IMG/VR virus record: IMGVR_UViG_3300048834_001245
Location: 1 to 27,460 of that record
Strand: one strand, 5' to 3'
From: a virus
DNA length: 27,460 nucleotides
A program made the position numbers and the translations under genes. Positions 1-11,983 of the stretch are shown piece after piece. Each line of letters opens with the position of its first letter. The first letter of the stretch is position 1. The notes beneath the pieces are model-generated. The model saw only the letters and a list, made by a program, of their open reading frames with translations. It was not told the origin of the DNA and ran no database searches.

Positions 1-103
1 TCAGAACCATGCGCTCAGAAACACCGAGAGATTTCGCGGCAGTATCGACGCTTACCTCAAGCTGGGAGTGGGGCTGGCTGCGGCGTGGCATCGCGGGCGA
101 CAT
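1..103 (-). CDS. Partial HTH protein (ParB/excisionase-like start), cut by window edge
   Basis: An open frame starts at an ATG (complement of 101-103) and runs off the left edge, so only 34 codons are seen. After a short basic leader, the residues VSVDTAAKSLGVSERMV resemble the helix-turn-helix found near the N-terminus of excisionase-like, ParB-like and phage or plasmid DNA-binding proteins (pattern V.vd.AA..LgVSer.V). An AAGGA lies only 2 nt before the ATG. A second ATG four codons later is an alternative start. The palindromic repeats at 175-339 lie just upstream and could be its binding sites, which is inference. The exact family cannot be decided from this fragment. Confidence 0.5.
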   Translation of the reverse strand, partial: MSPAMPRRSQPHSQLEVSVDTAAKSLGVSERMVL

Positions 104-174
104 GATCCTTGATTAGGAGTGCAGAGTACCCTAGCAGGGGGCATGCTCGCTCAAAAGGGGAAACATTCCGGACT

Positions 175-241
175 GGCATGATTTCCGAAATTTCGGAAAT
201 TTCCGAAGTTGCCGAAGTGACATTTCGGAAGTTTCGGAAAT
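175..241. repeat. CCGAA/TTCGG palindromic repeat cluster A
   Basis: Six CCGAA or TTCGG words, arranged head-to-head and head-to-tail with spacing of about 9-12 nt, fill this stretch. The first 33 nt (175-207, beginning GGCATG) are repeated exactly at 305-337. The core is overlapping palindromes such as TTTCCGAAATTTCGGAAA. The arrangement suggests several adjacent protein-binding half-sites (operator, partition site or iteron) or a mobile palindromic repeat. Confidence 0.7.
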
Positions 242-304
242 GACGGCTGATCATAAAACACGCATAGTCAATTAGATTAGCATGTTACGTTAACGTGCTG
301 TTTC

Positions 305-339
305 GGCATGATTTCCGAAATTTCGGAAATTTCCGAAAT
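305..339. repeat. CCGAA/TTCGG palindromic repeat cluster B
   Basis: Second copy of the 33-nt repeat that begins GGCATG. It contains two perfect 18-bp palindromes overlapping by 9 nt: TTTCCGAAATTTCGGAAA at 312-329 and TTTCGGAAATTTCCGAAA at 321-338. It sits just downstream of the fibre gene and its 3' hairpin. Confidence 0.7.
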
Positions 340-346
340 GGAGCCG

Positions 347-365
347 CTGGGGGCTACGCCCCCAG
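347..365. other. Perfect hairpin downstream of the fibre variable region
   Basis: CTGGGGGC and GCCCCCAG form a perfect 8-bp stem around the loop TAC, about 40 nt beyond the fibre stop codon. There is no following T-tract on the minus strand, so it is a poor intrinsic terminator. GC-rich hairpins or cruciforms just downstream of the variable region are known to assist mutagenic homing in DGRs such as that of Bordetella phage BPP-1, and position and shape fit that role. A plain transcript-end hairpin remains possible. Confidence 0.5.
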
Positions 366-404
366 ACCCCAACACCAAGGACCAAGGTCCAAGAAACCAA
401 GGAC

Positions 405-3400
405 TTAGTGGGCATTGGAGAAGGCGCAGCGGAAGCCCACGACGCTGTAGACGTCCGACGGCCCATTGACCAAATAGGCGGCGAACACGCCGGCGTACGA
501 GCCATCGTTCCAGTAGGCGCCGCGGAGCAGGGCATTGCCACTCGCGGTGCACCCATAATACTGACCGGCCCCGTTAGAGGAGGTCAGCGAGCCACTCGGG
601 CCGGCTACCAGCTTTTCCCAGTCGGTCACGTTGGCGTTGTTCCACTCGACCCATCCGGTGGTGTACCAGCTGGTCGTGTCGCACTGTGCATCCGTCCATT
701 CCCAGACGTTGCCGGCGAGGTCCCAGATGACATTGCCGTTGCTGAGGACGTGGGTGCGCATTTGCGATTTGTTGGCGGCGCCAGCCGAATAGGCTGTGCT
801 GTAGCCGTTGCCCGTGCCGTAGTAGCCATAGTCGGTGCTGTTGCCAGCATTGGTGCCGGGGCCACGCAGGGCGCAGGAGTTGTTGCTGGCATTCGATAGT
901 TCCAACGTGAGCGTGCAGCTCGAGAGCGAGGGGTCGGCCACTGCTGCCAAGGCGCTGGCCGGAGAGTTATCAGAGTGGCCAGTGGCAAGCTGAATACCGG
1001 CGGCCGAGTCGATATCGTTAATGGCGGTGGCCTCGATGTTGCGGGCGATGGTCATCCACTCGCCTTCGTTGACGAGGTGGCCGCCGACCCGCTTGCAGGC
1101 GCTTTGCGCCTCATACCAGGAGACGTTGACCCAGGGGGTGCCCGCAGAGGTCGACACTGCTTGGCCGGTGGTACCGTCCTTTTTGGCCTCGTACTTCATG
1201 ACGCAGAAGCTTGCGTTGGTGAAGCTCGCATTGCCCGGCACCAGGATATAGCCCGTGGGGCAGGTGAGGCTTGCTGTCGGCAGATTGGTGAGCTGCGAGC
1301 CGTCGACGGCCGGCAGCCGGGCACTGCCGTCGAGTTGGACCACTTTGCTCGCGGTGGTACCGACATCCAGTGTGGCAGCCGTGCCGAGGCCGAGGCTGGT
1401 GCGCGCCGTGGCGGCGACCAGGCCGGTGCTGCCGCCGTCCCATTTCATGCGGTCTGTGTAGGCGGTGTTCCAGTTTGCAGAGTTGTCGGCGACGACGCTG
1501 TAGGTCCCTGCCGCGGTGCGTGCCATTAGGCCGTCTGAGCCGAAGTCGCCGTTCATCACGGCGCCGGCGCTGTCGACCGCAGCCGTCGTGACGACGCCTG
1601 TGAGCTGGGAACCGTCGACAGCCGGCAGCTTGGCGGTGCCGTCTAGCTGCACGACATTGCTCGCGGCAGTGCCGACGTTCAGCGTGGCAGCTGTGCCGAG
1701 GCCGAGGCTCGTGCGGGCGGTCGTCGCATTGAGGCCGCTGGCGCCACCGTCCCACTGCAGCCGATCACTGTAGGCGGTGTTCCAGTCGGTGGCGCTGAGA
1801 GCAAGCCACGACGTCGTGCTGCCGTTGGTCGAGAGCACCTTGCCGGAGTTGCCGGTCTGGGCCGGCAGAAGACTCGTTAGCGCTCCGTCGGCGGTCGTCG
1901 CGCCGGTGCCGCCCTTGGCGACGGCCACGGCCGCGCTGAGGTTGGCGGGAGTGAGGTTTGAGACGGCCGAACCGTCGACGGCTGGCAGCTTGGCGGTAGC
2001 GTCAAGCTGCACCACTTGATCGGCGGCGGTGCCGACATCCAGCGTGGCGACCGTGCCGAGGCCGAGGCTGGCGCGGCCGGTGGCGGCCACGAGACCGGTG
2101 GCGCCGCCGTCCCATTTCAGGCGGTCGTCGTAGGCGGTGTTCCAGTTGGTGGTGCTGAGAGCAGTCCACGAGGCCGCCGTGCCGTCGGTCGAGAGCACCT
2201 TGCCGGAGTTGCCGGTCTGCGACGGCAGCAAGTTGGTGAGCGCCGCACTGGCGCTGGCGGCCCCGGTGCCGCCGCGGGAGATCGCAAGCTGCGCCTCGGA
2301 GCTCATCACGCCGCTGCCGTCGTTGACGAGCACGTGGGAGGCTGTGCCGGACGCCAGTTTGGCGCGGGCGATATTGGCACCCGCCTTGATCTCCGAGTCC
2401 TCGATGTTGCTGATCGTGTTGTTGTCGGCGTTGATCGTCTTGTTGATGAACGTGTCGGACGAGCTGGCCGTGGTCGCGGTCGCCCACGTCAGCACACCCG
2501 AGCCATTGGTCGACAGCAGCTGGCCGGCCGTGCCGTCTGCGGCAGGCAGAGTCCAGATTTGATTGCTTGCAACCGCGTCGGGCGCCTTGAGGCCGACGTA
2601 GTTATTCTCGAGCCCGTCACGCTCCTCAAAGCGCAGCTCGCCGGTTTGCCCGGCACCGCTGCCATAGCCGTCAAGCGTCACACCCGCTTGAAGGTCGCTG
2701 GTGAGCGAGCCGACCGGAAGGACGGTGGCCGCAGTAATGGCCGCCTGCTTGGCGTTGAGTTGGGCTTGGGGGTCCGAGGTCAGGCCCGCCAAATAATTGA
2801 AGTGCGTGTTGTCGACTGCTCCCGTGCCGATCTTGCTGGCGGCGATGTTGGCCGAAGCGCTGATGTCGGCATTTACGATGGTCCCGTCGGCGATGATGGT
2901 CGACGTGACGTCGCCGGTGCTCAGGCCGCCGCTGACAACGTCGTTCATGAGCTTGAAGCTACTGGTGGCGTTGTCCCACTTGATGACCTTTTGGTCGTTG
3001 CTGGCATCGAGAGTGTCGGTGAAGGCCTTGCCGCGGATCTTGGTGACCACCGTGGCATTCTGCGTGCCGGTGACGTCGCCGCTGAGGGTGCCGGAGAAGC
3101 TCTGCGCCTGTTTGATGGCGGTGATGTCGCCACCAGCGTCGACTTCGACAAAGGCATTGGTCGCCTTGATCACGCCCGGTGTAGTCGCGCCAGCAGTCGG
3201 GAGCGTGGCGGTCAGGCGGCCGCTTTCGTCGAACGTCACGGTGCTGCCGTCGACCGGCACCCGGGCTGCCAGCGGCACGACTGCAAAGCGCTGCCGAGGA
3301 TAGGTGCGCGCGTTGGTTTGATCGGTGATCTCGATATAGGCGGCCGTCTCAGCCGAGGGGAAGATCGCGCTGTAATCCTCGACCGGGAGATCGAGCGTCA

Positions 3401-3647
3401 GCTGAAAGACCCCCTCCTGGAGGGTCACTGCGGGGACGACGACTGGCTCGCCCAGCAGCGGACTGCCGCCGGTCTCACTTCGGAAGAAATGGACGGCAAG
3501 ATCGACGGGCCCCGCAAGCGGGCTGCCGGTCGGACCTGTCAGGCGGCCACCGTAGGAGAGCGGGAATGGGCCGGCGCTGGCGGCCAGCGGCGCCAGGGCG
3601 AGCCACAGCCCGGTCAGAGCCGAGGAGAGTTGGTGGTGCTTGGGCAT
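405..3647 (-). CDS. Secreted mosaic fibre/adhesin with DGR-type C-type-lectin tip
   Basis: A 1080-aa exported fibre-like protein, probably a trimeric surface adhesin. Residues 1-25 are a signal peptide ending LAASA|GP. Residues 26-145 form a beta-rich domain (GGRLTGPTGSPLAGPVDLAV onward) like the N-termini of mosaic adhesive trimer proteins of Bdellovibrio-type bacteria. Residues 180-460 contain phage-fibre-like text such as DGTIVNADISASANIAASKI. Three repeats centred on WNTAY.DR..WDGG start near residues 502, 622 and 726. Residues 796-1080 are a formylglycine-generating-enzyme/C-type-lectin fold (GHLVNEGEWM, NVIWDLAGNVWEWTDA, VGFRCAF). The last 40 residues match the layout of DGR variable regions. 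The ATG has GGAG 8 nt upstream. The signal peptide argues against a virion tail fibre. Structural class is well supported; ligand and host role are unknown. Confidence 0.85.
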   Translation of the reverse strand: MPKHHQLSSALTGLWLALAPLAASAGPFPLSYGGRLTGPTGSPLAGPVDLAVHFFRSETGGSPLLGEPVVVPAVTLQEGVFQLTLDLPVEDYSAIFPSAETAAYIEITDQTNARTYPRQRFAVVPLAARVPVDGSTVTFDESGRLTATLPTAGATTPGVIKATNAFVEVDAGGDITAIKQAQSFSGTLSGDVTGTQNATVVTKIRGKAFTDTLDASNDQKVIKWDNATSSFKLMNDVVSGGLSTGDVTSTIIADGTIVNADISASANIAASKIGTGAVDNTHFNYLAGLTSDPQAQLNAKQAAITAATVLPVGSLTSDLQAGVTLDGYGSGAGQTGELRFEERDGLENNYVGLKAPDAVASNQIWTLPAADGTAGQLLSTNGSGVLTWATATTASSSDTFINKTINADNNTISNIEDSEIKAGANIARAKLASGTASHVLVNDGSGVMSSEAQLAISRGGTGAASASAALTNLLPSQTGNSGKVLSTDGTAASWTALSTTNWNTAYDDRLKWDGGATGLVAATGRASLGLGTVATLDVGTAADQVVQLDATAKLPAVDGSAVSNLTPANLSAAVAVAKGGTGATTADGALTSLLPAQTGNSGKVLSTNGSTTSWLALSATDWNTAYSDRLQWDGGASGLNATTARTSLGLGTAATLNVGTAASNVVQLDGTAKLPAVDGSQLTGVVTTAAVDSAGAVMNGDFGSDGLMARTAAGTYSVVADNSANWNTAYTDRMKWDGGSTGLVAATARTSLGLGTAATLDVGTTASKVVQLDGSARLPAVDGSQLTNLPTASLTCPTGYILVPGNASFTNASFCVMKYEAKKDGTTGQAVSTSAGTPWVNVSWYEAQSACKRVGGHLVNEGEWMTIARNIEATAINDIDSAAGIQLATGHSDNSPASALAAVADPSLSSCTLTLELSNASNNSCALRGPGTNAGNSTDYGYYGTGNGYSTAYSAGAANKSQMRTHVLSNGNVIWDLAGNVWEWTDAQCDTTSWYTTGWVEWNNANVTDWEKLVAGPSGSLTSSNGAGQYYGCTASGNALLRGAYWNDGSYAGVFAAYLVNGPSDVYSVVGFRCAFSNAH
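429..530 (-). other. Putative DGR variable region (VR) in the fibre tip
   Basis: Codons 1040-1073 of the fibre read LLRGAYWNDG SYAGVFAAYL and continue to GFRC. DGR targets of the C-type-lectin/FGE type share RGG.W.NGS.AGVFA.NL..P......GFRCA, with variable positions at AAY codons in the template. Here the expected variable sites carry Ala1044/Tyr1045, Asp1048, Tyr1051, Tyr1058, Val1060, Asp1065, Val1066, Tyr1067, Ser1068 and Val1069. Most of these codons (TAC, GAT, TAT, GTC, GAC, AGC) can be reached from AAC or AAT by changing only A. The framework codons between them are conserved. The assignment rests on pattern only: no template repeat or reverse transcriptase is present here. Confidence 0.65.
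1281..2144 (-). repeat. Three in-frame repeats in the fibre shaft
   Basis: Codons 502-565, 622-685 and 726-789 encode copies of one ~64-residue unit: WNTAY.DR..WDGG..GL.A.. followed by R.SLGLGT.ATL.VGT and VVQLD..A.LPAVDGS. The first two copies are each preceded by a GGTGA....AL..LLP.QTGNSGKVLST segment (about 458-500 and 578-620), giving a 120-residue super-repeat. Such repeats usually form trimeric beta or coiled-coil shafts in fibres. Variation in copy number by recombination is plausible. Confidence 0.8.
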
Positions 3648-3810
3648 TCGGGCAACTCCGAGCAGGCACGGATTCCTCTAGGCAGCTTGTAGGAGGAGGT
3701 CGGACTTTTGCCTCAAAGTCTTTAGGGAAAGTGAGAATCTGGCTCAACAGCTCGACTTTTATGGAAGGAGTAGAGGGGCTTGGGATGACGTCGGATAGGG
3801 CGGCTAGAGT

Positions 3811-3840
3811 TTGTACTTTAGGACAAATTTTTCATATAGT
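3811..3840 (+). promoter_or_regulatory. Candidate sigma70-type promoter for the toxin-remnant/HTH gene
   Basis: TTGTAC (3811-3816) and TATAGT (3835-3840) are separated by 18 nt in a locally AT-rich stretch and point toward the HTH gene at 3963. Spacing and hexamers fit a housekeeping-type promoter; there is no other support. Confidence 0.4.
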
Positions 3841-3842
3841 AA

Positions 3843-3959
3843 AATCAAAGGAAATCCGATAAGAGAAGGACGGGGGTTATCCTGCTCGTCGGTGGTGACA
3901 AGGGATCGCAAGCATCCGACATCGAAACTGCTCGAAAACGGCTGCAGGACAAGGAGTAG
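3843..3959 (+). pseudogene. C-terminal remnant of a RelE/HigB-type toxin
   Basis: The frame ending at TAG 3957-3959 encodes GVILLVGGDKGSQASDIETA followed by a short basic tail. This is the characteristic C-terminus of RelE/HigB-like (phage Gp49-like) toxins, normally LLLCGGDKssQ..DI..A. No start codon or N-terminal two-thirds is found in frame: upstream is AT-rich sequence with stops in every frame. The fragment ends 3 nt before the HTH gene, exactly where a host-inhibition toxin would precede its HTH antitoxin. I read it as a decayed toxin whose antitoxin survives. Confidence 0.55.
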
Positions 3960-3962
3960 GCC

Positions 3963-4313
3963 ATGGCTCGCTTTACCAAAGAGCGACTTGAACAATTCCA
4001 GGACGTCGACGAGCTGCTGAATGCGCGCCTGACGCCAGAGGAGCGAGCGGAAAGCAGGCTCGAAGCTTTGCAAGAGCTTGCCGATTTGAAGGCGATGCAG
4101 GAAGAGCTGAGCAGGACTGTGGTTGAGTTCATGGCGACTGAAAAAATTGGGGTTCCCATGCTCACCTCGAGACTGGGAACGAGCACACGGCAGGCTTATA
4201 AGATCGTCAATGCGGAGGCGAACCTCACGCTAGCCAGTCTTGTGGAGCTGGGGCGGGTGTTAGGCAGGCGTCCTCGGATTGTTTGGGATCGGCGCGAGGA
4301 TGAACAAGAGTAA
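3963..4313 (+). CDS. HTH antitoxin-like transcriptional regulator (HigA/XRE-like)
   Basis: A 116-aa protein. The N-terminal half is charged and helical (LTPEERAESRLEALQELADL). The C-terminal half carries an XRE-like helix-turn-helix: GVPMLTSRLGTSTRQAYKIV, then NLTLASLVELGRVLGRRPRI, as in antitoxins of HigBA-type modules. AAGGAG lies 6 nt before the ATG. The toxin-type remnant directly upstream makes this the antitoxin half of a broken module, now an orphan regulator or anti-addiction gene. It probably binds its own upstream region. Confidence 0.7.
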   Translation: MARFTKERLEQFQDVDELLNARLTPEERAESRLEALQELADLKAMQEELSRTVVEFMATEKIGVPMLTSRLGTSTRQAYKIVNAEANLTLASLVELGRVLGRRPRIVWDRREDEQE

Positions 4314-4409
4314 GCAAGCGGCTCTCCCGAGGTCGCTAGCCCTCTTTATCTGCAAAAAGACGATGCACCCAGCCGATCGACCCTAGCCTAGCGCCATTCT
4401 GAGATGTCA

Positions 4410-4437
4410 GGCGGCCCCGAGGGGGTGGCCGGCCGCC
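4410..4437 (+). terminator. Possible terminator-like hairpin after the HTH gene
   Basis: GGCGGCC (4410-4416) and GGCCGCC (4431-4437) form a 7-bp GC stem with a 14-nt loop, about 100 nt after the HTH gene and before the next operon. No T-run follows, so an intrinsic terminator is uncertain. Confidence 0.35.
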
Positions 4438-4551
4438 CTCTTGAGCGACGGGGACGGGTGCTTTGTGCTTCAGCGCTTGCCGAAAGGTTCCGATAACGGT
4501 ACTCTTAACAGCTATGCGGGGCTTTCGCTCTGTGAAACTGAGGAGTTACCA

Positions 4552-4872
4552 ATGCTTAACTTCAAGACCGTGACCCTCACCGACCTGAAGAAAGACTCAA
4601 ACGCCCTCTTTGCCGGCGTGACGCGGGAGCAGCCCTTGCAGGTGCTCCACCGTGCCCACCCGGTCAAGGTGGTCATCCCGCTCGACCACTACCTGGATCT
4701 CGTTACCTGCTGGCACAGTGGCGAGAGAGGGAAAGAGGTCGTGCCGAAGGCGCTCGAGCAGGAGCTGCGCGAGGTGCGCGAGCAGTATCGTGCGTTGATG
4801 CTGAAGCTTGAAGGCAGCAGCGACCACGACGCCGGTGATTCTGCCGCGAAGCCTGAGAGTGAGACGGCTTGA
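4552..4872 (+). CDS. Phd/YefM-family antitoxin-like protein
   Basis: A 106-aa protein. Residues 5-50 match the Phd/YefM fold: VTLTDLKKDSNALFAGV, then QPLQVLHRAHPVKVVIPLDH, a beta-hairpin/helix DNA-binding domain that represses its own operon. The C-terminal half is acidic and helical (PKALEQELREVREQYRALML), where such antitoxins wrap their toxins. The ATG at 4552 is chosen because GAGGAG precedes it; the frame is open further upstream to a TTG at 4441 but without homology. The TGA overlaps the next gene's ATG (TGATG), implying coupled translation. No recognisable toxin follows, which is unusual. Confidence 0.65.
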   Translation: MLNFKTVTLTDLKKDSNALFAGVTREQPLQVLHRAHPVKVVIPLDHYLDLVTCWHSGERGKEVVPKALEQELREVREQYRALMLKLEGSSDHDAGDSAAKPESETA

Positions 4873-5192
4873 TGACGAACCAGAAGCGGGCGACATGGCG
4901 GTGGCGTTCGCCGGCCGTCTATCAGGCGGTATTGCGCCGGGCTCTGGACAAGGCGGATTATTCAGGCGCGATCGAGACGGCCGAGAAGTATCTCACGAAG
5001 ATCCGCTTTGTCATCGAGACGGCCGAGCGCAATCCGGAGCTTTGGACCTCGACCGGCAAGCCACCCTATCGATTTACGCCGCTGCCAGGTCCCTCTCCTG
5101 GCGAGGGGGACGTTGTTGTTTGGAGCTGGGACGGCGCCGAGCTGGTGGGCGAGGGTGTCTATTCGTGTTTGCCGCCGGCTTACCAGACGTAG
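4872..5192 (+). CDS. Unknown protein coupled to Phd-like antitoxin
   Basis: A 106-aa protein I do not recognise. It begins MTNQKRATWRWRSPAVYQAV, has a helical middle (AETAEKY-type and FVIETAERNPELW segments) and ends with a Pro/Gly-rich stretch and beta-like VVVWSWDGAELVGEGVYSCL. No signal peptide or membrane segment is seen. It overlaps the Phd-like gene by one base, so the two are probably made together. Position suggests a partner of that antitoxin, but the sequence resembles no toxin family known to me (Doc, YoeB, RelE). Confidence 0.6.
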   Translation: MTNQKRATWRWRSPAVYQAVLRRALDKADYSGAIETAEKYLTKIRFVIETAERNPELWTSTGKPPYRFTPLPGPSPGEGDVVVWSWDGAELVGEGVYSCLPPAYQT

Positions 5193-5196
5193 GCGG

Positions 5197-5212
5197 AGCG
5201 CCGTGAGGCGCT
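5197..5212. terminator. Hairpin between convergent operons
   Basis: AGCGCC-GTGA-GGCGCT is a perfect 6-bp stem with a GTGA tetraloop, 5 nt after the stop of the rightward gene. A second short inverted repeat (AGCGA/TCGCT) lies at 5246-5262. The 94-nt gap between convergent genes is where a bidirectional terminator is expected. The lack of a T-tract keeps confidence low. Confidence 0.35.
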
Positions 5213-5264
5213 AGGCGCCGAGCGGCGTCGGGGGCTGCGGAGGAAAGCGAGTAGTCTTCGCTGG

Positions 5265-5585
5265 CCGCTTGACCGCTTGCTTTGCTCTAGCGTCCCTCGG
5301 AGACGTCAAGCGGCGTCACGCCTAGACCGCGGCTCTCCAGCAGCTTGCCGAGCTGCTCGAGGGCGGCTGCCGCCTTTTCGAGCGATGCACAGGCGCTTGG
5401 CATTTCGCGCGGGGTCATGGCGCCGCGTGCCCAGGTGACGTGAGCGCGGATGCGCTCGAGCCAGCCGGCAAGGTCGGTCGGCGGTTCGCTGGCGCTAGGG
5501 GAATACCACCAGGTGGCGGCGGCTTGAGGGCTGGGTTTCTCATTGTTTGTCATGGCTAGCTCCTGTGTCGTAGGCCTCCTTGGGT
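5265..5585. repeat. Long direct repeat, copy 1 (carries P88a)
   Basis: About 320 nt that recur at roughly 6815-7135 in the same orientation. The repeat covers the whole 88-aa gene, its ribosome-binding region and a short 3' flank (CGCTTG...CTAG.GTCCCTCGG). Identity is highest within the gene and fades outside it. There are no terminal inverted repeats or transposase, so this looks like gene duplication or recombination rather than an insertion sequence. Ends are approximate. Confidence 0.75.
5287..5553 (-). CDS. Unknown 88-aa protein, copy P88a
   Basis: Small soluble protein of unknown family. Visible features: TWWYSPSASEPP near the N-terminus, then DLAGWLERIRAHVTWARG, a conserved MTPREMPSACASLEKAAAAL helix and a C-terminal GLGVTPLDVSEGR. 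It is probably helical, with no membrane segment. The start at MTNNEK is preferred over the upstream in-frame ATG (5613) because AGGAG precedes it and the second copy starts at the same place. It differs from P88b at 9 of 88 residues. It is the last gene of the leftward run, 60 nt after the DUF2283 gene. Confidence 0.7.
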   Translation of the reverse strand: MTNNEKPSPQAAATWWYSPSASEPPTDLAGWLERIRAHVTWARGAMTPREMPSACASLEKAAAALEQLGKLLESRGLGVTPLDVSEGR

Positions 5586-5613
5586 CTTGTTCGATCACGG
5601 ATTGCGACAACAC

Positions 5614-5904
5614 CTAACGATTTGACGACCGCTGCGCTGCTGTCGATGACCTTCGGTTTTCCGCGTTTTCTTGCCGTCTGCTGCCTGGCTGCTGCCTACG
5701 CGCTCGGGCGGCTGGACCGCTGGAGCCGCTTGCTTTGAGCAGCGGCGCGAGTTGGCTCAATGCTAGCACTTCGATCCCAAGCACCTGGCCGTTCTTGTCA
5801 AGGTCGAACAAGATGCCCGGGCGCAGCTCGACCGTGGATGCGACCTTGCCGGTGCGGAGCTTGATGTATGCGACGTCTAGCTTGGCGTCTTTTGTCACCT
5901 TCAC
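5614..5904 (-). CDS. DUF2283 family small protein
   Basis: A 96-aa protein. Residues 1-50 fit DUF2283: VKVTKDAKLDVAYIKLRTGK, then STVELRPGILFDLDKNGQVL, then GIEVLALSQL, with the family's DxxxD.ayi.l and giEvl...l signatures. The family often sits next to DUF4258 genes as a suspected antitoxin partner, and here it starts 4 nt after one. I choose the GTG at 5904, with GGAAGGA upstream. The last ~40 residues are a basic, low-complexity Arg/Gln/Ser tail absent from typical members, perhaps from loss of an earlier stop codon. Confidence 0.7.
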   Translation of the reverse strand: MKVTKDAKLDVAYIKLRTGKVASTVELRPGILFDLDKNGQVLGIEVLALSQLAPLLKASGSSGPAARARRQQPGSRRQENAENRRSSTAAQRSSNR

Positions 5905-5908
5905 GGGC

Positions 5909-6136
5909 TCAGTCCTTCCAGTAAGCGGTGATGAGGAGATATCCACCTCGCACCTTCAAGTAAACCACTAGCAGGGTTCGGCGTGCGAGGGGAAGCTCCG
6001 CGATGAATCGGCCGCTGATATCGATGCGTGTTGTCTCTCCGAGCGCAATGCAGCGACGCACCTCAGTGCGCGAGATGCGACGCTCTTTGAGGCGGAGTGC
6101 AGCGTGCGGGGAGACTTCAAGAGGTGCGGGAGCCAT
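5909..6136 (-). CDS. DUF4258 family protein (putative RelE/MqsR-like toxin)
   Basis: A 75-aa protein with the DUF4258 pattern: SPHAALRLKERRISRTEVRR, then a Gly-containing turn, RRTLLVVYLKVRGGYLLITA and a terminal YWKD. Members are small, fold like RelE/MqsR-type endoribonucleases and commonly pair with YgiT-type zinc-finger/HTH proteins or DUF2283 proteins. Both kinds flank it here. The ATG has GGAG 10 nt upstream. RNase activity is inference. Confidence 0.75.
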   Translation of the reverse strand: MAPAPLEVSPHAALRLKERRISRTEVRRCIALGETTRIDISGRFIAELPLARRTLLVVYLKVRGGYLLITAYWKD

Positions 6137-6244
6137 TGCCTAAAAACTCCACCAGCAAGAAATGGGTCAGCGCGCTTTGCGTCGGCAGAACGTGTACGGC
6201 GAGCGCACTTGTGTGCCGACCTTTGGCTAAGCCCCCCTTCGTCT

Positions 6245-6805
6245 TTAAAGAGCGAGGCGGTTGAAGAGGTCATTGCTTTCAATGCGCTGTGGCAGATGGA
6301 CAGTCTGATCAGGGTCGAGATGATCAGCGATACGTGCCAGCTCATTCAGATCGAGCCCAAGACGGCGGGCATAGATCACCCGGAGACGAAACTGCCGGTC
6401 GATGCTGAGATGGCGGGTCGTGTTGTTGACCGATTCAAACTTATTGTACTCTTTGACGTCCATGTTGAGGGCACTCGCGGTTTCTTGCTGGGTCAAGCCG
6501 GCAACGATGCGAAGAAACCGCAACTGCTGCTTGTCGAGAGCATGCGCATCGTTGATGAGCTGTGTGGCAATGCCGAGCCTGAGATTCTGCTCGAGCCCTG
6601 GGTAGAAATAGAGCGTCTCACAGGTATCGCACTCGACAAAGGGCGCCTTGACCAGGAGGACCATGCCGAGCCCTTCGATGGTGTGGGGGATGTTTTCTCG
6701 GATTGTGACCTTCCAGGTGCCTTTGCAGTCACACGTGGCGTGGGCGTCGTCGAACTCATCTTGGAGACGGCGTTCGTCGAGGCTCCTAAGGTTACCAAAA
6801 GTCAT
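6245..6805 (-). CDS. YgiT-type zinc-finger/HTH protein (MqsA-like antitoxin)
   Basis: A 186-aa protein with the MqsA architecture. The N-terminal zinc-binding domain has CDC (Cys25/Cys27) and CDTC (Cys59/Cys62) around PHTIEGLGMVLLVKAPFVE. The first pair is CxC rather than the usual CxxC. Residues ~90-125 form an XRE-type HTH (LRFLRIVAGLTQQETASALN, then EYNKFES). A further helical region (RQFRLRVIYARRLGLDLNEL) follows. The known role of MqsA-like proteins is to neutralise a partner toxin and repress the operon. The likely partner is the DUF4258 protein 108 nt downstream. It begins 32 nt after P88b. Confidence 0.75.
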   Translation of the reverse strand: MTFGNLRSLDERRLQDEFDDAHATCDCKGTWKVTIRENIPHTIEGLGMVLLVKAPFVECDTCETLYFYPGLEQNLRLGIATQLINDAHALDKQQLRFLRIVAGLTQQETASALNMDVKEYNKFESVNNTTRHLSIDRQFRLRVIYARRLGLDLNELARIADHLDPDQTVHLPQRIESNDLFNRLAL

Positions 6806-6814
6806 ATGTCACCC

Positions 6815-7135
6815 GTCGCCGGCCGCTTGATTCGTTCTAGTGTCCCTCGGAGACGTCAAGCGGCGTCACGCCAAGACCACGGGTCTCCAGCACCTTGCCG
6901 AGCTGCTCGAGGGCGGCTGCCGCCTTCTCGAGCGATGCACAGGCGCTTGGCATTTCGCGCGGCGTCATGGTCCCGCGCGCCCAGGTGACGTGAGCGCGGA
7001 TGCGCTCGAGCCAGCCGGCAAGGTCCTTCGGCGGCTCGCTGGCGCTTGGGGAGTACCACCAGGTGGTGGCGGCTTGTGGGGCAGTCTTCTCATTGCTCGT
7101 CATGGGCAGCTCCTGCGGCGTCGCGCTCCTTGGCG
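6815..7135. repeat. Long direct repeat, copy 2 (carries P88b)
   Basis: Second copy of the repeat described at 5265-5585, same orientation, about 1.55 kb away. The YgiT, DUF4258 and DUF2283 genes lie between the copies, so recombination between them could delete or amplify that three-gene block. Confidence 0.75.
6837..7103 (-). CDS. Unknown 88-aa protein, copy P88b
   Basis: Paralogue of P88a, identical at 79 of 88 residues by eye; substitutions are scattered and mostly conservative, so both copies look functional. It overlaps the end of the CopG/BrnA-like antitoxin gene by 14 nt and has AGGAG 7-8 nt before its ATG, so it is translationally coupled as the third gene of that module. Function is unknown. 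Occurrence behind two different TA-type modules suggests an accessory antitoxin, chaperone or selfish passenger. Confidence 0.72.
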   Translation of the reverse strand: MTSNEKTAPQAATTWWYSPSASEPPKDLAGWLERIRAHVTWARGTMTPREMPSACASLEKAAAALEQLGKVLETRGLGVTPLDVSEGH

Positions 7136-7482
7136 CGCCTTAGGCGGATGTACTCGGTGACGGCCATCTTGATAAAGCTCTGGTAGCCGATGTTGAGGCG
7201 CTTGGCCTCTTCCTTGGCGTTGGCAAGCAGCGACTCTGGCCACTTCATATAGACGGGCGCCAGGGGCTCGTCGCTTTTGGGCCGGCCGCCGCCGTGACGC
7301 TTGGCGAGGTTTTCTTTGACCTGCCGGTCGATCTCGTGGATCTCAGAGAGCTCGTCGTCTTGGGCGGCCACCCAGTCGCTTTGACGGCCGGCTCGAAAGT
7401 CTTCTTCGAGTTTTTGGGCCTCTTTAAGGTCGGCCTCTCTCTCAGCCTTGGTGCTTGGATCGATGGGGTAGTTGGAGGGCAT
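7090..7482 (-). CDS. CopG/BrnA-like antitoxin
   Basis: A 130-aa protein. The N-terminal two-thirds are acidic and helical (AEREADLKEAQKLEEDFRAG). The C-terminal part carries a ribbon-helix-helix-like segment (GGGRPKSDEPLAPVYMKWPE, then AKRLNIGYQSFIKMAVTEYI), as in BrnA and related CopG-type antitoxins, which bind DNA as dimers and neutralise a small RNase toxin. The ATG at 7482 is chosen because AAGGAAG lies 6 nt before it; an in-frame ATG at 7509 lacks such a site. It starts 17 nt after the toxin gene. Confidence 0.75.
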   Translation of the reverse strand: MPSNYPIDPSTKAEREADLKEAQKLEEDFRAGRQSDWVAAQDDELSEIHEIDRQVKENLAKRHGGGRPKSDEPLAPVYMKWPESLLANAKEEAKRLNIGYQSFIKMAVTEYIRLRRAKERDAAGAAHDEQ

Positions 7483-7498
7483 TGTTAGCTTCCTTTTT

Positions 7499-7780
7499 TC
7501 AAAGCTCATCGAGCCACAGTGCTGTTTTGAGTTTGAGTTTTCGCCTGTTGCGATCGGGGGTCAGAAAGAGGACCAGCACCCGGTCGCTCATGGTTGGCGC
7601 GATGATGCGCCAGGTTTCGGGCGGGTCGTGCCGCGGGTTGCGAGGCCGCCTCCAGTCTGCGGGCGAAGAGTTGCAGTAGGCTTCCTCCACGTCGGTTTCT
7701 GTGACGCCATGCTCGGTTGCGATTTTCTCCAAGACCCATGGGGAGATCTCGAGGGTGTAGCCGTCAAACTCCCTCACCAC
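7499..7780 (-). CDS. BrnT-like toxin
   Basis: A 93-aa protein beginning VVREFDGYTLEISPWVLEKI and continuing with TETDVEEAY, a Trp/Arg-rich loop and RVLVLFLTPDRNRRKLKLKT. Size, the late beta-strand RVLVLFLTPD and gene order (toxin before a CopG/BrnA-like antitoxin) fit the BrnT/RelE-fold toxins, which cleave mRNA. The GTG start has GAGAGGAGG 8 nt upstream, a strong site. The AT-rich stretch at 7800-7860 probably holds the promoter for this gene and perhaps for the whole seven-gene run. Confidence 0.65.
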   Translation of the reverse strand: MVREFDGYTLEISPWVLEKIATEHGVTETDVEEAYCNSSPADWRRPRNPRHDPPETWRIIAPTMSDRVLVLFLTPDRNRRKLKLKTALWLDEL

Positions 7781-8256
7781 CAGGTGAGCCTCCTCTCTCT
7801 AGTCGGCACTATTTTATATATACTTTAGCTCAACCGACCCTTCCTAGCAAAAATATATGTGAAACCATCCTAATTCCTGCGCAGGGACGCAAGTCCGCAA
7901 AATTTTTCATTCTCTAGTGAGCTGCTGCGGCGCCGCCGGCACCGCAAAAGGGGGGTGGGAAAGGACCCGTTTGCACGCTTTCTACGCACTGTGTCGGAAG
8001 CTGTGGCCGCTTTGGCAAAAGCCGTAAACATGCCGTCTTTTGTCTGCTATCTTAGCGGCATAGGTTCATTTCCCGACAGAATGCATGGCCGTGCGCGAGG
8101 GCTCCTTGTGGCTCAAGGGTTTTGCGTCTCATCTTCGGCGGGCGTCCGGCCCCTCGGAGTAACCCTGTCTTACCTCCTACTTCTCACGACGAAGAAAGGG
8201 GTAGGGATCGGGCGCTATTTATTCGCAAAAGGGTGCTGGGGAAGGAGCAAGGTCGG
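7781..8256. other. Divergent intergenic region; likely left end of the prophage
   Basis: 476 nt between the leftward TA run and the rightward recombinase. 7800-7920 is clearly more AT-rich than its surroundings, with TATATATAAAATAG on the minus strand as a possible -10 region for the toxin operon. A GC palindrome GCGGCGCCGC lies near 7927. The frame of the recombinase is open back to 8122 but without homology. An integrase-proximal att site is expected here; I found no matching core in the right-hand 300 nt by eye. Confidence 0.45.
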
Positions 8257-9849
8257 GTGCTGACGATCTACTACGTGTCGCTTGGTGGCTCACTGGAGGA
8301 GATGAAGCGGATCTACCGGGCGCAGGAGGAGAGGCGGCATCCCGGCAAGATGCTGCCGCACCTGGACGAGCGCATGAACAAGGTGCGGGTGGTACTCGAA
8401 AAGAATACCTCCTTTCGCTCGCTGATGCTGACGGCCGAAGACCGCAGTGTGGTGGTGATCGATGGCCTGAACCACCCCAGGCTCGACATCGACCTCTTCG
8501 TCGACCTCTACGAGAAGCGCAGGAAAGACGGCCTCTACGTGCGGCTGCTTGATGAAAACCTGCTGCTTGATCCCAAAGAGCAGATGACCAGCTCGTTTCT
8601 CACCGGGGTCATGAACGCTCATCAGAAAAAGCTCCGCCCCCGACGGCTTCCCAGCATCGCCGAGGCCCATGGCAAAAGCTTTATCTCCGACATGCAGCGC
8701 GAGAGGCGAGAGGGCGCAACGCTGGAGGCCTTGGCAAAAAAGTACGGCGTGTCGGTGAGCGCTGCCCATCGCTACACGCGCGGCCACCAGCGACCGCTTG
8801 CGCGCAAGGTGGAGGGCGACAAGTCCGAGCCGGCCCCAAGCCTTGCCAGGCTTGGAAACCTCGCAGAGACGCCCGAAGAGAGGCTCGAGCAGCTTCTCGA
8901 GATCTTTCTTTCCGGCCAAAGAAAGCCCGCCACCGCCAAGCTCTACCGCAAGCACCTGGGCACCTACCGAAGCTTTGCGGCCAGCGTGCTCGAAAGCCCC
9001 GTCGACCGTCTCGACAAGTTCACGCTGGAAAGCGTCGTGGCCTTCAAGCAGTACCGAAGTGAGCTTGGCAAGCAGCCGGCCACCATCGCCAGCGAGCTGT
9101 CGGCCGTCAAAGCCTTCCTGGGGTTTTGCGCTGGCGAAGAGGAGATCCCCAAAAACCCGCTTCAAAGGCTCAAGGTTCCAAAGGTCGAGAGAAAGGTCCA
9201 GACCGAGGCGCTCACCCGAGACGAAACCGCCAAGGTCATCGCCACGGCCCAGGAGATCTTGAAGTCGACGCCGCCTTTGAACATCCCCCAGCGCTGGAAG
9301 GCCCACCGCGATCTTTTGGCCGTCTACCTCCTGGCCGGCGTCGGCATGCGCCACAGCGGTCTTTTGTCGCTCAGAAAGTGCGACCTCCTCGAAACACGCC
9401 GCGGCAAAAGCCTCGCCATTGAAAGCAAGGCCAACGCCGATCGCTACACCGTCGGCGTCTCAAAGCCAGTCGCCGACATGGTCGAGGCCTATATCGAGCG
9501 CTACTTTCACGACGCTCCTCCCGAGGCCTACCTTTTCTCGGCCTCTCTCGAGGTCAAAGACAAGCCGCTTGGCATCTCGACCAGCTGTCGCCGCATCAGT
9601 AGCCTTTTTGACAAGGCCGGCATCACCCCGATCACTGCCGGGGGAAGCCAAAGAAGAGCCCACAGTCTCAGAGTCTCTTGGGCCAAGTTTGCCTACGAAG
9701 ATGGCGCCGATATCCGTAGTATTCAGCTCAAAATGAATCACAGCGCCGTCGACCAGACCTACGCCTATCTTAAAATCGACGACGCCGAGGTCGACACCAG
9801 GTGGCTGCCGACTGTCCGTCTGCAAACCTCCACCGGAGTGAGGCTTTGA
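8257..9849 (+). CDS. Tyrosine recombinase fused to a degenerate serine-resolvase-like domain
   Basis: A 530-aa protein with two recombinase-type parts. Residues 1-130 (VLTIYYVSLGGSLEEMKRIY, VVVIDGLNHPRLDIDLFVDL, YVRLLDENLLLDP, FLTGVMNAHQ) follow the layout of serine resolvases, but the YaRvS arginine and the LdRl.R arginines are not conserved, so this part is probably not catalytic. Residues ~146-178 form a resolvase-type HTH (GATLEALAKKYGVSVSAAHR). Residues 205-530 are a tyrosine recombinase with a SAM-like core-binding domain and candidate catalytic Arg365, Lys391, His469-x-x-Arg472, His495 and Tyr504. GTG 8257 is chosen for GAAGGAG 9 nt upstream. Its stop overlaps the terminase gene (TTGA). 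Likely role: integration and excision of the element. Confidence 0.85.
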   Translation: MLTIYYVSLGGSLEEMKRIYRAQEERRHPGKMLPHLDERMNKVRVVLEKNTSFRSLMLTAEDRSVVVIDGLNHPRLDIDLFVDLYEKRRKDGLYVRLLDENLLLDPKEQMTSSFLTGVMNAHQKKLRPRRLPSIAEAHGKSFISDMQRERREGATLEALAKKYGVSVSAAHRYTRGHQRPLARKVEGDKSEPAPSLARLGNLAETPEERLEQLLEIFLSGQRKPATAKLYRKHLGTYRSFAASVLESPVDRLDKFTLESVVAFKQYRSELGKQPATIASELSAVKAFLGFCAGEEEIPKNPLQRLKVPKVERKVQTEALTRDETAKVIATAQEILKSTPPLNIPQRWKAHRDLLAVYLLAGVGMRHSGLLSLRKCDLLETRRGKSLAIESKANADRYTVGVSKPVADMVEAYIERYFHDAPPEAYLFSASLEVKDKPLGISTSCRRISSLFDKAGITPITAGGSQRRAHSLRVSWAKFAYEDGADIRSIQLKMNHSAVDQTYAYLKIDDAEVDTRWLPTVRLQTSTGVRL

Positions 9850-10142
9850 GGGAAGAACACAAAGGAGGAGCCCTCGAGGCCGAGCAGGTGCGGCTCACCA
9901 AGGTGAGAGCCGACAAGCTCGAGCTGGAGCTGCTCGAGAAAGAGCGTCAGCTCGTGCCAGTCGACGAGGTGAAAAAGCTCTGGAAGGCGGCCGTCATGGC
10001 GGCCAAGGCCAGGCTTCTTGCCATCCCAGCCTCTAAAGCGCCCACCCTGGCTCTGCTTGGCGAGCCAGCCGAGGTCGAAGAAGTGCTCACAAGGGCCATC
10101 GACGACGCCTTGGCCGAGCTTTCCAGGGGAGAGGTCATTTGA
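9846..10142 (+). CDS. Small terminase subunit (Nu1-like), short form
   Basis: A 98-aa protein. AEQVRLTKVRADKLELELLE, then KERQLVPVDEVKKLWKAAVM and ARLLAIPASKAPTLA match the second half of Nu1-type small terminases, which bind the large subunit. The N-terminal winged-helix half that recognises the cos or pac site in ~170-180-aa relatives is absent. The frame is open only about 15 codons further upstream, inside the recombinase gene. I place the start at TTG 9846, overlapping the recombinase stop, with GGAG/GAGG just upstream. AAAGGAGG at 9862-9870 could instead serve a GTG near 9888. Confidence 0.7.
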   Translation: MREEHKGGALEAEQVRLTKVRADKLELELLEKERQLVPVDEVKKLWKAAVMAAKARLLAIPASKAPTLALLGEPAEVEEVLTRAIDDALAELSRGEVI

Positions 10143-11983
10143 GGGCAGAAAGAGAGCTGCTCGAAGTCTTTCGCGAAGCCTTTGCCCCGCCGCCTCGGCT
10201 TTCCATCTCGGACTGGGCCGAGCGCTACCGTGTCCTCTCGGGCGAGGCCTCGGCCTCGCCTGGCCGCTGGCGCACCGACAGCGTGCCATATCTTCGAGGC
10301 ATCATGGAGGCCGTCAAGGCGCCAGACGTCAAAGAGGTCATCGTCAAGGCCGCAGCCCAGGTCGGAAAGACCGAGTTTCTCCTCAACTGCATCGGCTACT
10401 ACACCCACCAGGAGCCAAGCCCCCAGCTGGTGCTTCTGCCAACGCTTGAGCTAGCCGAGATCTGGAGCAAAGACCGCCTGGCCACCATGATTCGCGACTC
10501 CAAGGTCCTGGCCAAGATTGTCGAAGACCCCAAGGCCAAGGACAGCTCCAACACCATGCTGCACAAGCGCTTTGCCGGCGGTCACATCTCGCTGGCCGGC
10601 GCCAACTCGCCGGCCTCGCTCTCGTCACGGCCGATTCGCATCGTCTACGCCGACGAGGTCGACCGGATGCCCGACTCGGCTGGCTCGGAAGGAAGCCCGC
10701 TCGATCTGGCGCGAAAGCGCTCGTCGACCTTCTACAACCGAAAATTTATCGCGACCAGCTCGCCCTCTAGAGAGCGCCGGACCTCCAAGATAAACCGCCT
10801 CTACGAGGCCTCAAGGCGGCACGTCTTTGAGCTGCCCTGTCCCCACTGCCGCGCCTTTATCGTCCTTGAATGGGAGGGGGTCGTCTGGGAGGAGGAAAGG
10901 ACTGAGACAGCCTTCTACCGCTGCCAGGAGTGTGCCGGCGCCATCTACGACGGCCACAAATTGGCAGCCCTCAAGGCCGGTCGCTGGCGCTGTCTTGACC
11001 CCGACAAGCGGGGGGCAAGTGTCGGCTTTCACGTCTCGGCCCTCTACTCGCCGTGGGTCTCTTTTGGCGAGACGGCCGACGAGTACATGGCAGCCCAGCG
11101 CGACACCGAGAAAATGAAGGTCTTCTACAACACCTTTCTTGGCGAGCCCTACGAGGACGAGGTCGACACGGTGGCCTCGAGTCTCCTTTCCACGAGAGCC
11201 GAAGACTACGAGGCCGAGGTGCCACGTGGCGTCAGGGTGCTTTGTCTTGGAGTCGACGTCCAAGACGACCGCCTTGAGGCCCAAGTCATCGGCTACGGCG
11301 AGGACTGGGAGGCCTGGGTCATCGGCTACTACGTTCTTTGGGGAGACGTCGCCACAGAGGCGCCGTGGGCTCTTCTCGACGAGCTTCGCACTAGGGAGTT
11401 TCGCCACGAGTGGGGCTTTCCCGTCCGGGTCGTGGCAACGGCCGTCGACTCGGGCGACAACACCAAGATCGTCTACGACTACGTGCGCGGCAAGACCGGC
11501 CAGAGGGTCTTTGCCGTAAAGGGCGTGCGCGGCACGGGAAGGCCCGTGGTCGGTGCGCCGAGTAGACGCAAAAGCCCCTCGGATGGGCGCGAGGTGGTGC
11601 TTTATCCCTTGGGCGTCGACGAGGGGAAGGCGCTTCTCTACCAGAGGCTCAAGCTCACAGAGCCCGGCCCCGGCTACATACATTTCCCCATGGCGCTTTC
11701 TGCTGATTACTATAAACAGCTTACCTCAGAACGCGTGAAGATCACTTACCAAAATGGCCACCCCGTCAAGGTCTGGGAGCTGCCGCGGCACCGCCGCAAC
11801 GAAGCTCTCGACACGGCCGTCTACGCGCACGCGGCCGCCGTGATCCTCAATCCGCTCTTTCGCGAGATCACGCAAAGGATGGAGCGCCTTAGAGACAGCC
11901 ACGGCAAGGCAAGCGAGAAAAAAAGACTCCTCATCAAGAAGCGAAGAGACAGCGTCGGCTTTGTGAACGCCTGGAGAAACTAG
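10139..11983 (+). CDS. Large terminase subunit (GpA family)
   Basis: A 614-aa DNA-packaging motor of the lambda GpA type. Residues 71-79 (AAAQVGKTE) are the Walker A loop, and IVYADEVDR (168-176) is the Walker B region with Asp172/Glu173. Residues 234-265 hold a zinc ribbon (CPHC...CQEC). The C-terminal nuclease begins near GVDVQDDR (~369-376), with VVATAVDSGDNTKIVYDYV further on. Length is typical of the family, so ATPase and nuclease both look intact. Starts at a TTG overlapping the previous stop (TTGA), with GGGGAGAGG upstream. Confidence 0.92.
   Translation: MRAERELLEVFREAFAPPPRLSISDWAERYRVLSGEASASPGRWRTDSVPYLRGIMEAVKAPDVKEVIVKAAAQVGKTEFLLNCIGYYTHQEPSPQLVLLPTLELAEIWSKDRLATMIRDSKVLAKIVEDPKAKDSSNTMLHKRFAGGHISLAGANSPASLSSRPIRIVYADEVDRMPDSAGSEGSPLDLARKRSSTFYNRKFIATSSPSRERRTSKINRLYEASRRHVFELPCPHCRAFIVLEWEGVVWEEERTETAFYRCQECAGAIYDGHKLAALKAGRWRCLDPDKRGASVGFHVSALYSPWVSFGETADEYMAAQRDTEKMKVFYNTFLGEPYEDEVDTVASSLLSTRAEDYEAEVPRGVRVLCLGVDVQDDRLEAQVIGYGEDWEAWVIGYYVLWGDVATEAPWALLDELRTREFRHEWGFPVRVVATAVDSGDNTKIVYDYVRGKTGQRVFAVKGVRGTGRPVVGAPSRRKSPSDGREVVLYPLGVDEGKALLYQRLKLTEPGPGYIHFPMALSADYYKQLTSERVKITYQNGHPVKVWELPRHRRNEALDTAVYAHAAAVILNPLFREITQRMERLRDSHGKASEKKRLLIKKRRDSVGFVNAWRN

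Follow-up and report, generated by a model that had tools for sequence, protein, structure and literature searches.

The window analyzed here is a 27,460-nucleotide stretch (positions 1 to 27,460) of the IMG/VR record IMGVR_UViG_3300048834_001245, a viral contig and not part of a bacterial genome, and the gene under study occupies positions 8257 to 9849 on its plus strand, encoding a protein of 530 residues from a GTG start codon. In all complete relatives the conserved N-terminus, MLTIYYV or MLTIYFV, begins at this GTG, and comparison with the relatives revealed no conservation in the DNA immediately 5′ of it; thus, the ORF is real and 8257 is its true start. From N to C terminus, the protein contains a domain with a predicted serine-resolvase fold and a lost active site (residues 1 to 130; 8257 to 8646), a basic arm and Hin/resolvase-type helix-turn-helix (HTH; residues 131 to 180; 8647 to 8796), an unconstrained linker (residues 181 to 205; 8797 to 8871), and the core-binding (SAM-like) domain (residues 206 to 310; 8872 to 9186) and catalytic domain (residues 311 to 530; 9187 to 9849) of a tyrosine recombinase. 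Serine and tyrosine recombinases are unrelated in fold and chemistry. The original prediction that the two classes are joined in this one ORF was upheld by profile and structure methods, and the protein appears to be a natural serine-resolvase/tyrosine-recombinase hybrid, in which the N-terminal resolvase copy is predicted to be catalytically dead and the tyrosine copy is seemingly working.

Immediately downstream of the fusion gene are a small terminase-small-type ORF (∼9843 to 10142) and the gene for the terminase large subunit GpA (10139 to 11983, plus strand), which matches GpA_ATPase and GpA_nuclease with E values below 1e-80. The same contig encodes lambda-type portal, capsid and contractile-tail (sheath) genes. 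The fusion was found in ten records, in each a short way 5′ of the terminase, representing seven distinct lineages with identities down to ∼52%, and all known members belong to one related group of metagenomic contigs. Close relatives were few. Because family scans were empty and a single-sequence structure model was useless, diverged relatives were sought through the neighboring terminase, which added L027, L028 and L032 (51 to 53% identity); these three encode the same fusion architecture in the same place and gene order by the terminase. In L027, a BrnT/BrnA-like toxin-antitoxin pair, recognized by eye, lies between the fusion gene and the terminase-small-type ORF (1522 to 2113, minus strand). 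Each of the ten records contains exactly one Phage_integrase match and no PF00239 match, and the fusion is the sole site-specific recombinase detected in each.

The C-terminal half was readily assigned. Phage_integrase (PF00589) scored above its cut-off in the Pfam scan with an E value of 5e-16, the core-binding domain matched Phage_int_SAM_1 (E 5e-4), and the best curated models were XerC/XerD (E ∼1e-24), spanning residues 223 to 512. The PHROG integrase match had an E value of 2e-32. The R-K-HxxR-H-Y catalytic set, R365, K391, H469, R472, H495 and Y504, is unchanged across seven aligned sequences (A3). Residues 206 to 530 are, as originally predicted, a complete tyrosine recombinase, of the Xer-like (simple, two-domain) type, and its activity is predicted from these sequence matches.

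The N-terminal half matched no Resolvase family model from Pfam, NCBIfam or PHROGs over residues 1 to 196, and the fused protein showed no match to PF00239, in both cases up to an E value of 10, so that profile and structure methods were needed to assess its resemblance to resolvases. Single-sequence searches gave hints only, to gamma-delta resolvase over residues 56 to 164 (E 0.88) and to a Paenibacillus recombinase family protein over residues 27 to 181 (E 7). Searches of phages and plasmids with N-terminal queries returned insignificant matches only, some of them annotated as recombinase family proteins. A profile built from seven relatives (A4) ranked Tn3/gamma-delta resolvases first among PDB sequences, with E values of 0.05 to 0.16 and collinear alignment through residue 179, once two higher-scoring, repeat-summed protein A chains were set aside. 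When the N-terminal profile was compared by hhalign with 13 aligned serine recombinases assembled for this analysis, the match had a probability of 96%, an E value of 2e-9 and a score of 61.9; the highest score among 100 column shuffles was 22.0, the reversed profile scored 13.6 and, as an internal control, the core-binding and catalytic domains of the same protein scored 13. The alignment runs on through the HTH region, which also matches Pfam HTH_3 (E 1e-3). For residues 1 to 130 by themselves the score was 33.3, and shuffling gave no more than 23.7. Global hhalign limited to these residues was weak (probability 12%), and the resolvase-like character of the first 50 residues is therefore based on the structure model alone.

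Structure prediction from one sequence gave an unusable model (pLDDT 46.7), and AlphaFold2 run from seven sequences a model of medium confidence (pLDDT 64.6). Its secondary structure elements follow the resolvase order, with a strand at residues 4 to 6, helices at 13 to 27 and 53 to 59, a strand at 65 to 68, a helix at 78 to 89, a strand at 94 to 97 and a helix at 109 to 125, followed by a three-helix HTH; it departs from resolvases in having a helix, residues 34 to 41, in place of strand 2. Every one of the top 17 Foldseek matches in the PDB was a serine recombinase (best E 2e-5), and several of them covered catalytic domain and HTH together. VIA-align superimposed residues 2 to 127 on gamma-delta resolvase (2rsl) with a Z score of 8.6, and residues 130 to 178 on the HTH of Hin (1ijw) with a Z score of 5.7 and an rmsd of 1.8 Å over 46 residues. 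The named best matches among predicted viral structures were recombinases, resolvases and integrases. Thus, residues 1 to 178 are predicted, from sequence profiles and a model with a pLDDT of 64.6, to adopt a serine-resolvase fold followed by a Hin-type HTH.

The collinear alignment of relatives points to loss of the serine active site. Specifically, S10 of gamma-delta resolvase corresponds to G10, R8 to S, P or E8, R45 to N or T50, D67 to N, D or E72, R68 to H, S or A73 and R71 to L, V or I76, and the serine-recombinase catalytic residues are absent from every member aligned. S12 is invariant among the relatives and the register around residue 10 is uncertain, but serine chemistry is implausible in any register because the arginines are lost. 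With catalytic serine, arginines and aspartate replaced, the fusion protein is not an active member of the serine recombinases. The sequence-based prediction had thus anticipated the resolvase fold of residues 1 to 130, the resolvase-type HTH and the missing conserved arginines; all three were recovered across the relatives or in the model, and the serine and aspartate proved to be gone too. The structure prediction for residues 1 to 130, which could have overturned the original prediction, spoke for it.

To measure selection on the domains, dN/dS was calculated by the Nei–Gojobori method for pairs of relatives from 85% to 48% identity. Residues 1 to 130 gave values of ∼0.1 to 0.45 (0.13 to 0.45 per pair), comparable with those of the core-binding (0.2 to 0.5) and catalytic (0.1 to 0.4) domains. 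The linker, residues 181 to 205, is only 8 to 26% identical in distant pairs, with dN/dS of ∼0.5 to 1.7 where measurable; in several of these pairs the ratio is close to 1 or higher. Change in the HTH is faster than in the other domains (0.4 to 1.0 in distant pairs). No loss of the resolvase part was found among the complete members examined. Unlike the linker, the resolvase domain is held by purifying selection comparable to that on the tyrosine half, and it is therefore probably in use and not decaying.

A ParA ATPase (AAA_31, E 1e-30 to 1e-42) is encoded 3′ of the tail genes in five of the ten records; it falls outside the window itself, whose contig stops before that point. In L061 (17734 to 18756) and L062, the ParA ATPase downstream of the tail genes has an N-terminal extension that resembles an HTH. 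A replication gene was matched weakly, by PriCT_1 (primase C-terminal, E 0.014). G009, the longest contig, overlaps at its right end with the left ends of four other contigs, and the map closes into a circle with the order recombinase, terminase, head, tail, ParA, weak primase-C-terminal protein, GH108 endolysin, patatin and accessory genes. Phage structural genes (terminase, portal, capsid and sheath) and the partition gene ParA thus occur together in the group, and the presence of ParA in five of ten records and the closed gene map suggest that these phages are phage-plasmids. Scans of bacterial and archaeal genomes, of a sensitivity limited by exact-peptide seeding, found no relatives, and no tRNA genes were found in the window.

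Upstream of the fusion gene, a conserved non-coding element of 80 bp (7894 to 7974) sits between divergent genes, 280 bp from the fusion start codon. It contains a 21-bp near-palindrome, TGCGGCGCCG-c-CGGCACCGCA (7926 to 7946), which occurs in each of the six distinct lineages compared and whose inner 19 bp are identical in 6/6. The element is 86 to 91% identical even to that of L028 and L032, whose recombinases are only ∼52% identical. Homology among all lineages starts sharply at ∼7894, the 280 bp after the element are barely alignable, and the left flank consists of accessory genes that differ from lineage to lineage. Beyond the phage group, a search of all viral contigs with the element pattern returned only two A+T-rich chance matches. 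By its conservation, and with flanks as expected beside a recombination site, the element is the best candidate for an att/res-like site.

The region to the left of the element, ∼3730 to 7890 in the window and also seen in L055 to L060, is an accessory island of toxin-antitoxin and other small genes. These have been shuffled between phages, with identities of up to 97 to 98% and breakpoints that fall within genes and at microhomologies. One small gene of the island is present in two 311-bp copies (5273 to 5583 and 6823 to 7133) that are 89% identical. In L032, a GTPase/ATPase-type gene and a second gene, together resembling a McrBC restriction pair and recognized by eye, lie immediately left of the recombinase (8 to 2506, plus strand). 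Farther left in the window, a large FGE-sulfatase-type protein (405 to 3644, minus strand) is the likely target of a diversity-generating retroelement, and a copy of the variable repeat of the retroelement lies at 418 to 534. The retroelement was located in L055 (3765 to 3881; 3935 to 4912, minus strand; 6254 to 6370), where the reverse transcriptase adjoins the repeats; the 117-bp template and variable repeats show 14 differences, 13 of them at template adenines on the coding strand.

In the fold of residues 1 to 130, the order of catalytic domain, arm and HTH, and size, the N-terminal half resembles Tn3/gamma-delta resolvase. The fusion differs from that enzyme in having S10, R8, R45, D67, R68 and R71 all replaced, in the helix modeled at strand 2 and in being joined to a second recombinase. 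The C-terminal half shares its core-binding and catalytic domains and the full catalytic set with XerC/XerD, the simple tyrosine recombinases and Cre of P1; simple tyrosine recombinases do not have the 205-residue N-terminal extension of the fusion, and its best phage and plasmid matches are ∼22 to 28% identical. Lambda-type integrases have a common layout with the fusion, an accessory N-terminal domain ahead of core-binding and catalytic domains, but the accessory domain of the fusion is predicted to be a dead resolvase with HTH rather than an arm-binding fold, and no arm-binding domain was matched among Pfam models. Hybrids in which a recombinase is joined to another DNA-binding domain have been engineered. 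Among 50,697 phage and 72,556 plasmid records, we found no serine–tyrosine fusion and no phage or plasmid record covering 80% of the fusion protein; plasmid matches that extended into residues 121 to 205 were ordinary tyrosine recombinases without a resolvase part. A literature search, covering mainly open-access papers, returned no natural serine–tyrosine recombinase fusion. Within the phage and plasmid records and the literature searched, the protein would thus be a tyrosine recombinase with a new accessory domain.

We consider it probable that the protein is a chimera in which the tyrosine half is the catalyst and the dead resolvase half a non-catalytic module for DNA binding, dimerization and pairing. 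A small serine resolvase, with catalytic domain and C-terminal HTH, would have lost its active site and become joined ahead of an Xer-like tyrosine recombinase. The tyrosine half would carry out all strand cleavage and exchange, while the resolvase half would attach to accessory DNA next to the crossover site, dimerize and juxtapose partner sites with a defined geometry, biasing which recombination occurs. It would stand in for the arm-binding domain of lambda-type enzymes, or for the dimers that resolvase forms at accessory sites in Tn3 res. The DNA site acted on would be the conserved element a short way 5′ of the gene. As its biological task, the protein would either resolve dimers of a plasmid-like prophage, as Cre does for P1, or serve integration and excision, because ParA is carried and no other recombinase was detected. 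DNA binding, dimerization, site and task are all properties that we infer for the fusion.

Published work offers parallels. Circular replicons require a dimer-resolution system (PMC11724359). Tn3 resolvase inactivated by S10A still permits efficient recombination if it occupies accessory site II or III, whereas at site I it does not (PMC9943657). The suggestion in the original prediction that the dead part could provide site choice, dimerization or directionality is consistent with this behavior and with the purifying selection on the domain. A further analogy is provided by Xer/cer and Xer/psi, in which non-catalytic proteins on accessory DNA (PepA and ArgR/ArcA) direct a tyrosine recombinase and give Xer/cer its direction at plasmid sites (PMC5357621); by comparison, the proposed architectural protein of the fusion is covalently linked and itself a former recombinase. 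The dead half might even build a resolvase-type synaptic complex at accessory sites, as a built-in topological filter for tyrosine strand exchange, which we regard as somewhat unlikely. Of the Tn3 resolvase R-interface positions R2, R32, K54 and E56, only E56 is clearly matched, by the conserved E61, and a Tn3-like synaptosome is therefore not assured.

The protein might instead be an ordinary phage integrase acting at a host attB, its resolvase module a replacement arm-binding domain with no topological role. This reading, to which we give a little less than an even chance, overlaps the chimera reading in that it shares the same domain mechanism and differs in biological task. The temperate-style gene content and the mosaic accessory genes beside the conserved element agree with it, and integrases that have an additional DNA-binding domain make up most of the tyrosine recombinases of phages; in a survey that distinguishes simple and arm-binding-domain types, phage enzymes with such a domain are in the majority, 410 versus 27 (PMC8138268), which also speaks for the chimera reading. 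The ParA of the relatives, however, points to an extrachromosomal state, and no integrated copy was found in the bacterial and archaeal genomes scanned, within the sensitivity allowed by exact-peptide seeding. It is improbable that the N-terminal half is mainly a transcription regulator of the recombinase or of the neighboring leftward genes, acting from the conserved element. That element does bear a palindrome and lie between divergent genes, and the HTH has weak but present similarity to regulators, but its 280-bp distance from the start codon and the left flank that changes between lineages are more in keeping with a recombination site than with a promoter operator.

Readings that deny the resolvase half a function or an ancestry fare worse. 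Were it a functionless vestige of gene fusion, the lost active site and the failure of any Resolvase model to recognize the domain would be explained, but residues 1 to 130 are constrained like the tyrosine half down to ∼50% identity next to a linker that is free to vary, and the domain is kept in every complete member; we judge this very unlikely. We give no more credence to another alpha/beta domain, for example a receiver-like one, that merely resembles a resolvase. Response regulators are the nearest other natural fold, appearing lower in the fold list (VpsT, Foldseek E 5e-3; RcsB, VIA Z 4.8), and the model is of medium confidence, but resolvases lead in sequence profile, profile–profile and fold comparisons, the resolvase/Hin-type HTH is correctly placed, and the shuffled and internal hhalign controls fail. 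Finally, phage integrons are known (PMC9892861), and the fused enzyme could conceivably insert and remove the toxin-antitoxin cassettes to its left, the recombinase being divergent from accessory genes that are shuffled between contigs at 97 to 98% identity up to a constant border at ∼7894. Since attC-like repeats were looked for and not found, and the cassette borders, many of them within genes or at microhomologies, share no common motif, we dropped an integron-like system as extremely unlikely.

If, as the chimera reading holds, the dead resolvase still pairs sites, the fusion would allow a direct test of whether the topological filter of resolvase operates apart from the resolvase's own chemistry, a question for which engineered Tn3 and Bart resolvases have so far been mixed (PMC9943657). 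The fusion would then also represent a second route, besides the arm-binding domain (PMC8138268), by which a simple tyrosine recombinase can gain an accessory DNA-binding domain.

Free-standing resolvases were seen in two other phage records. The Megaira phage OP381185.1 (L054), which also has a patatin gene, carries an intact-looking resolvase gene at 7983 to 8555, directly upstream of the terminase and so in the slot of the fusion, an arrangement that is a possible model for the origin of the fused domain. A gut phage record, MT839397.1 (L044), encodes a stand-alone small serine recombinase with degenerate catalytic motifs, apparently a dead resolvase, which has VVVDSMAALTSS in place of the usual VVWKLDRLGRS.
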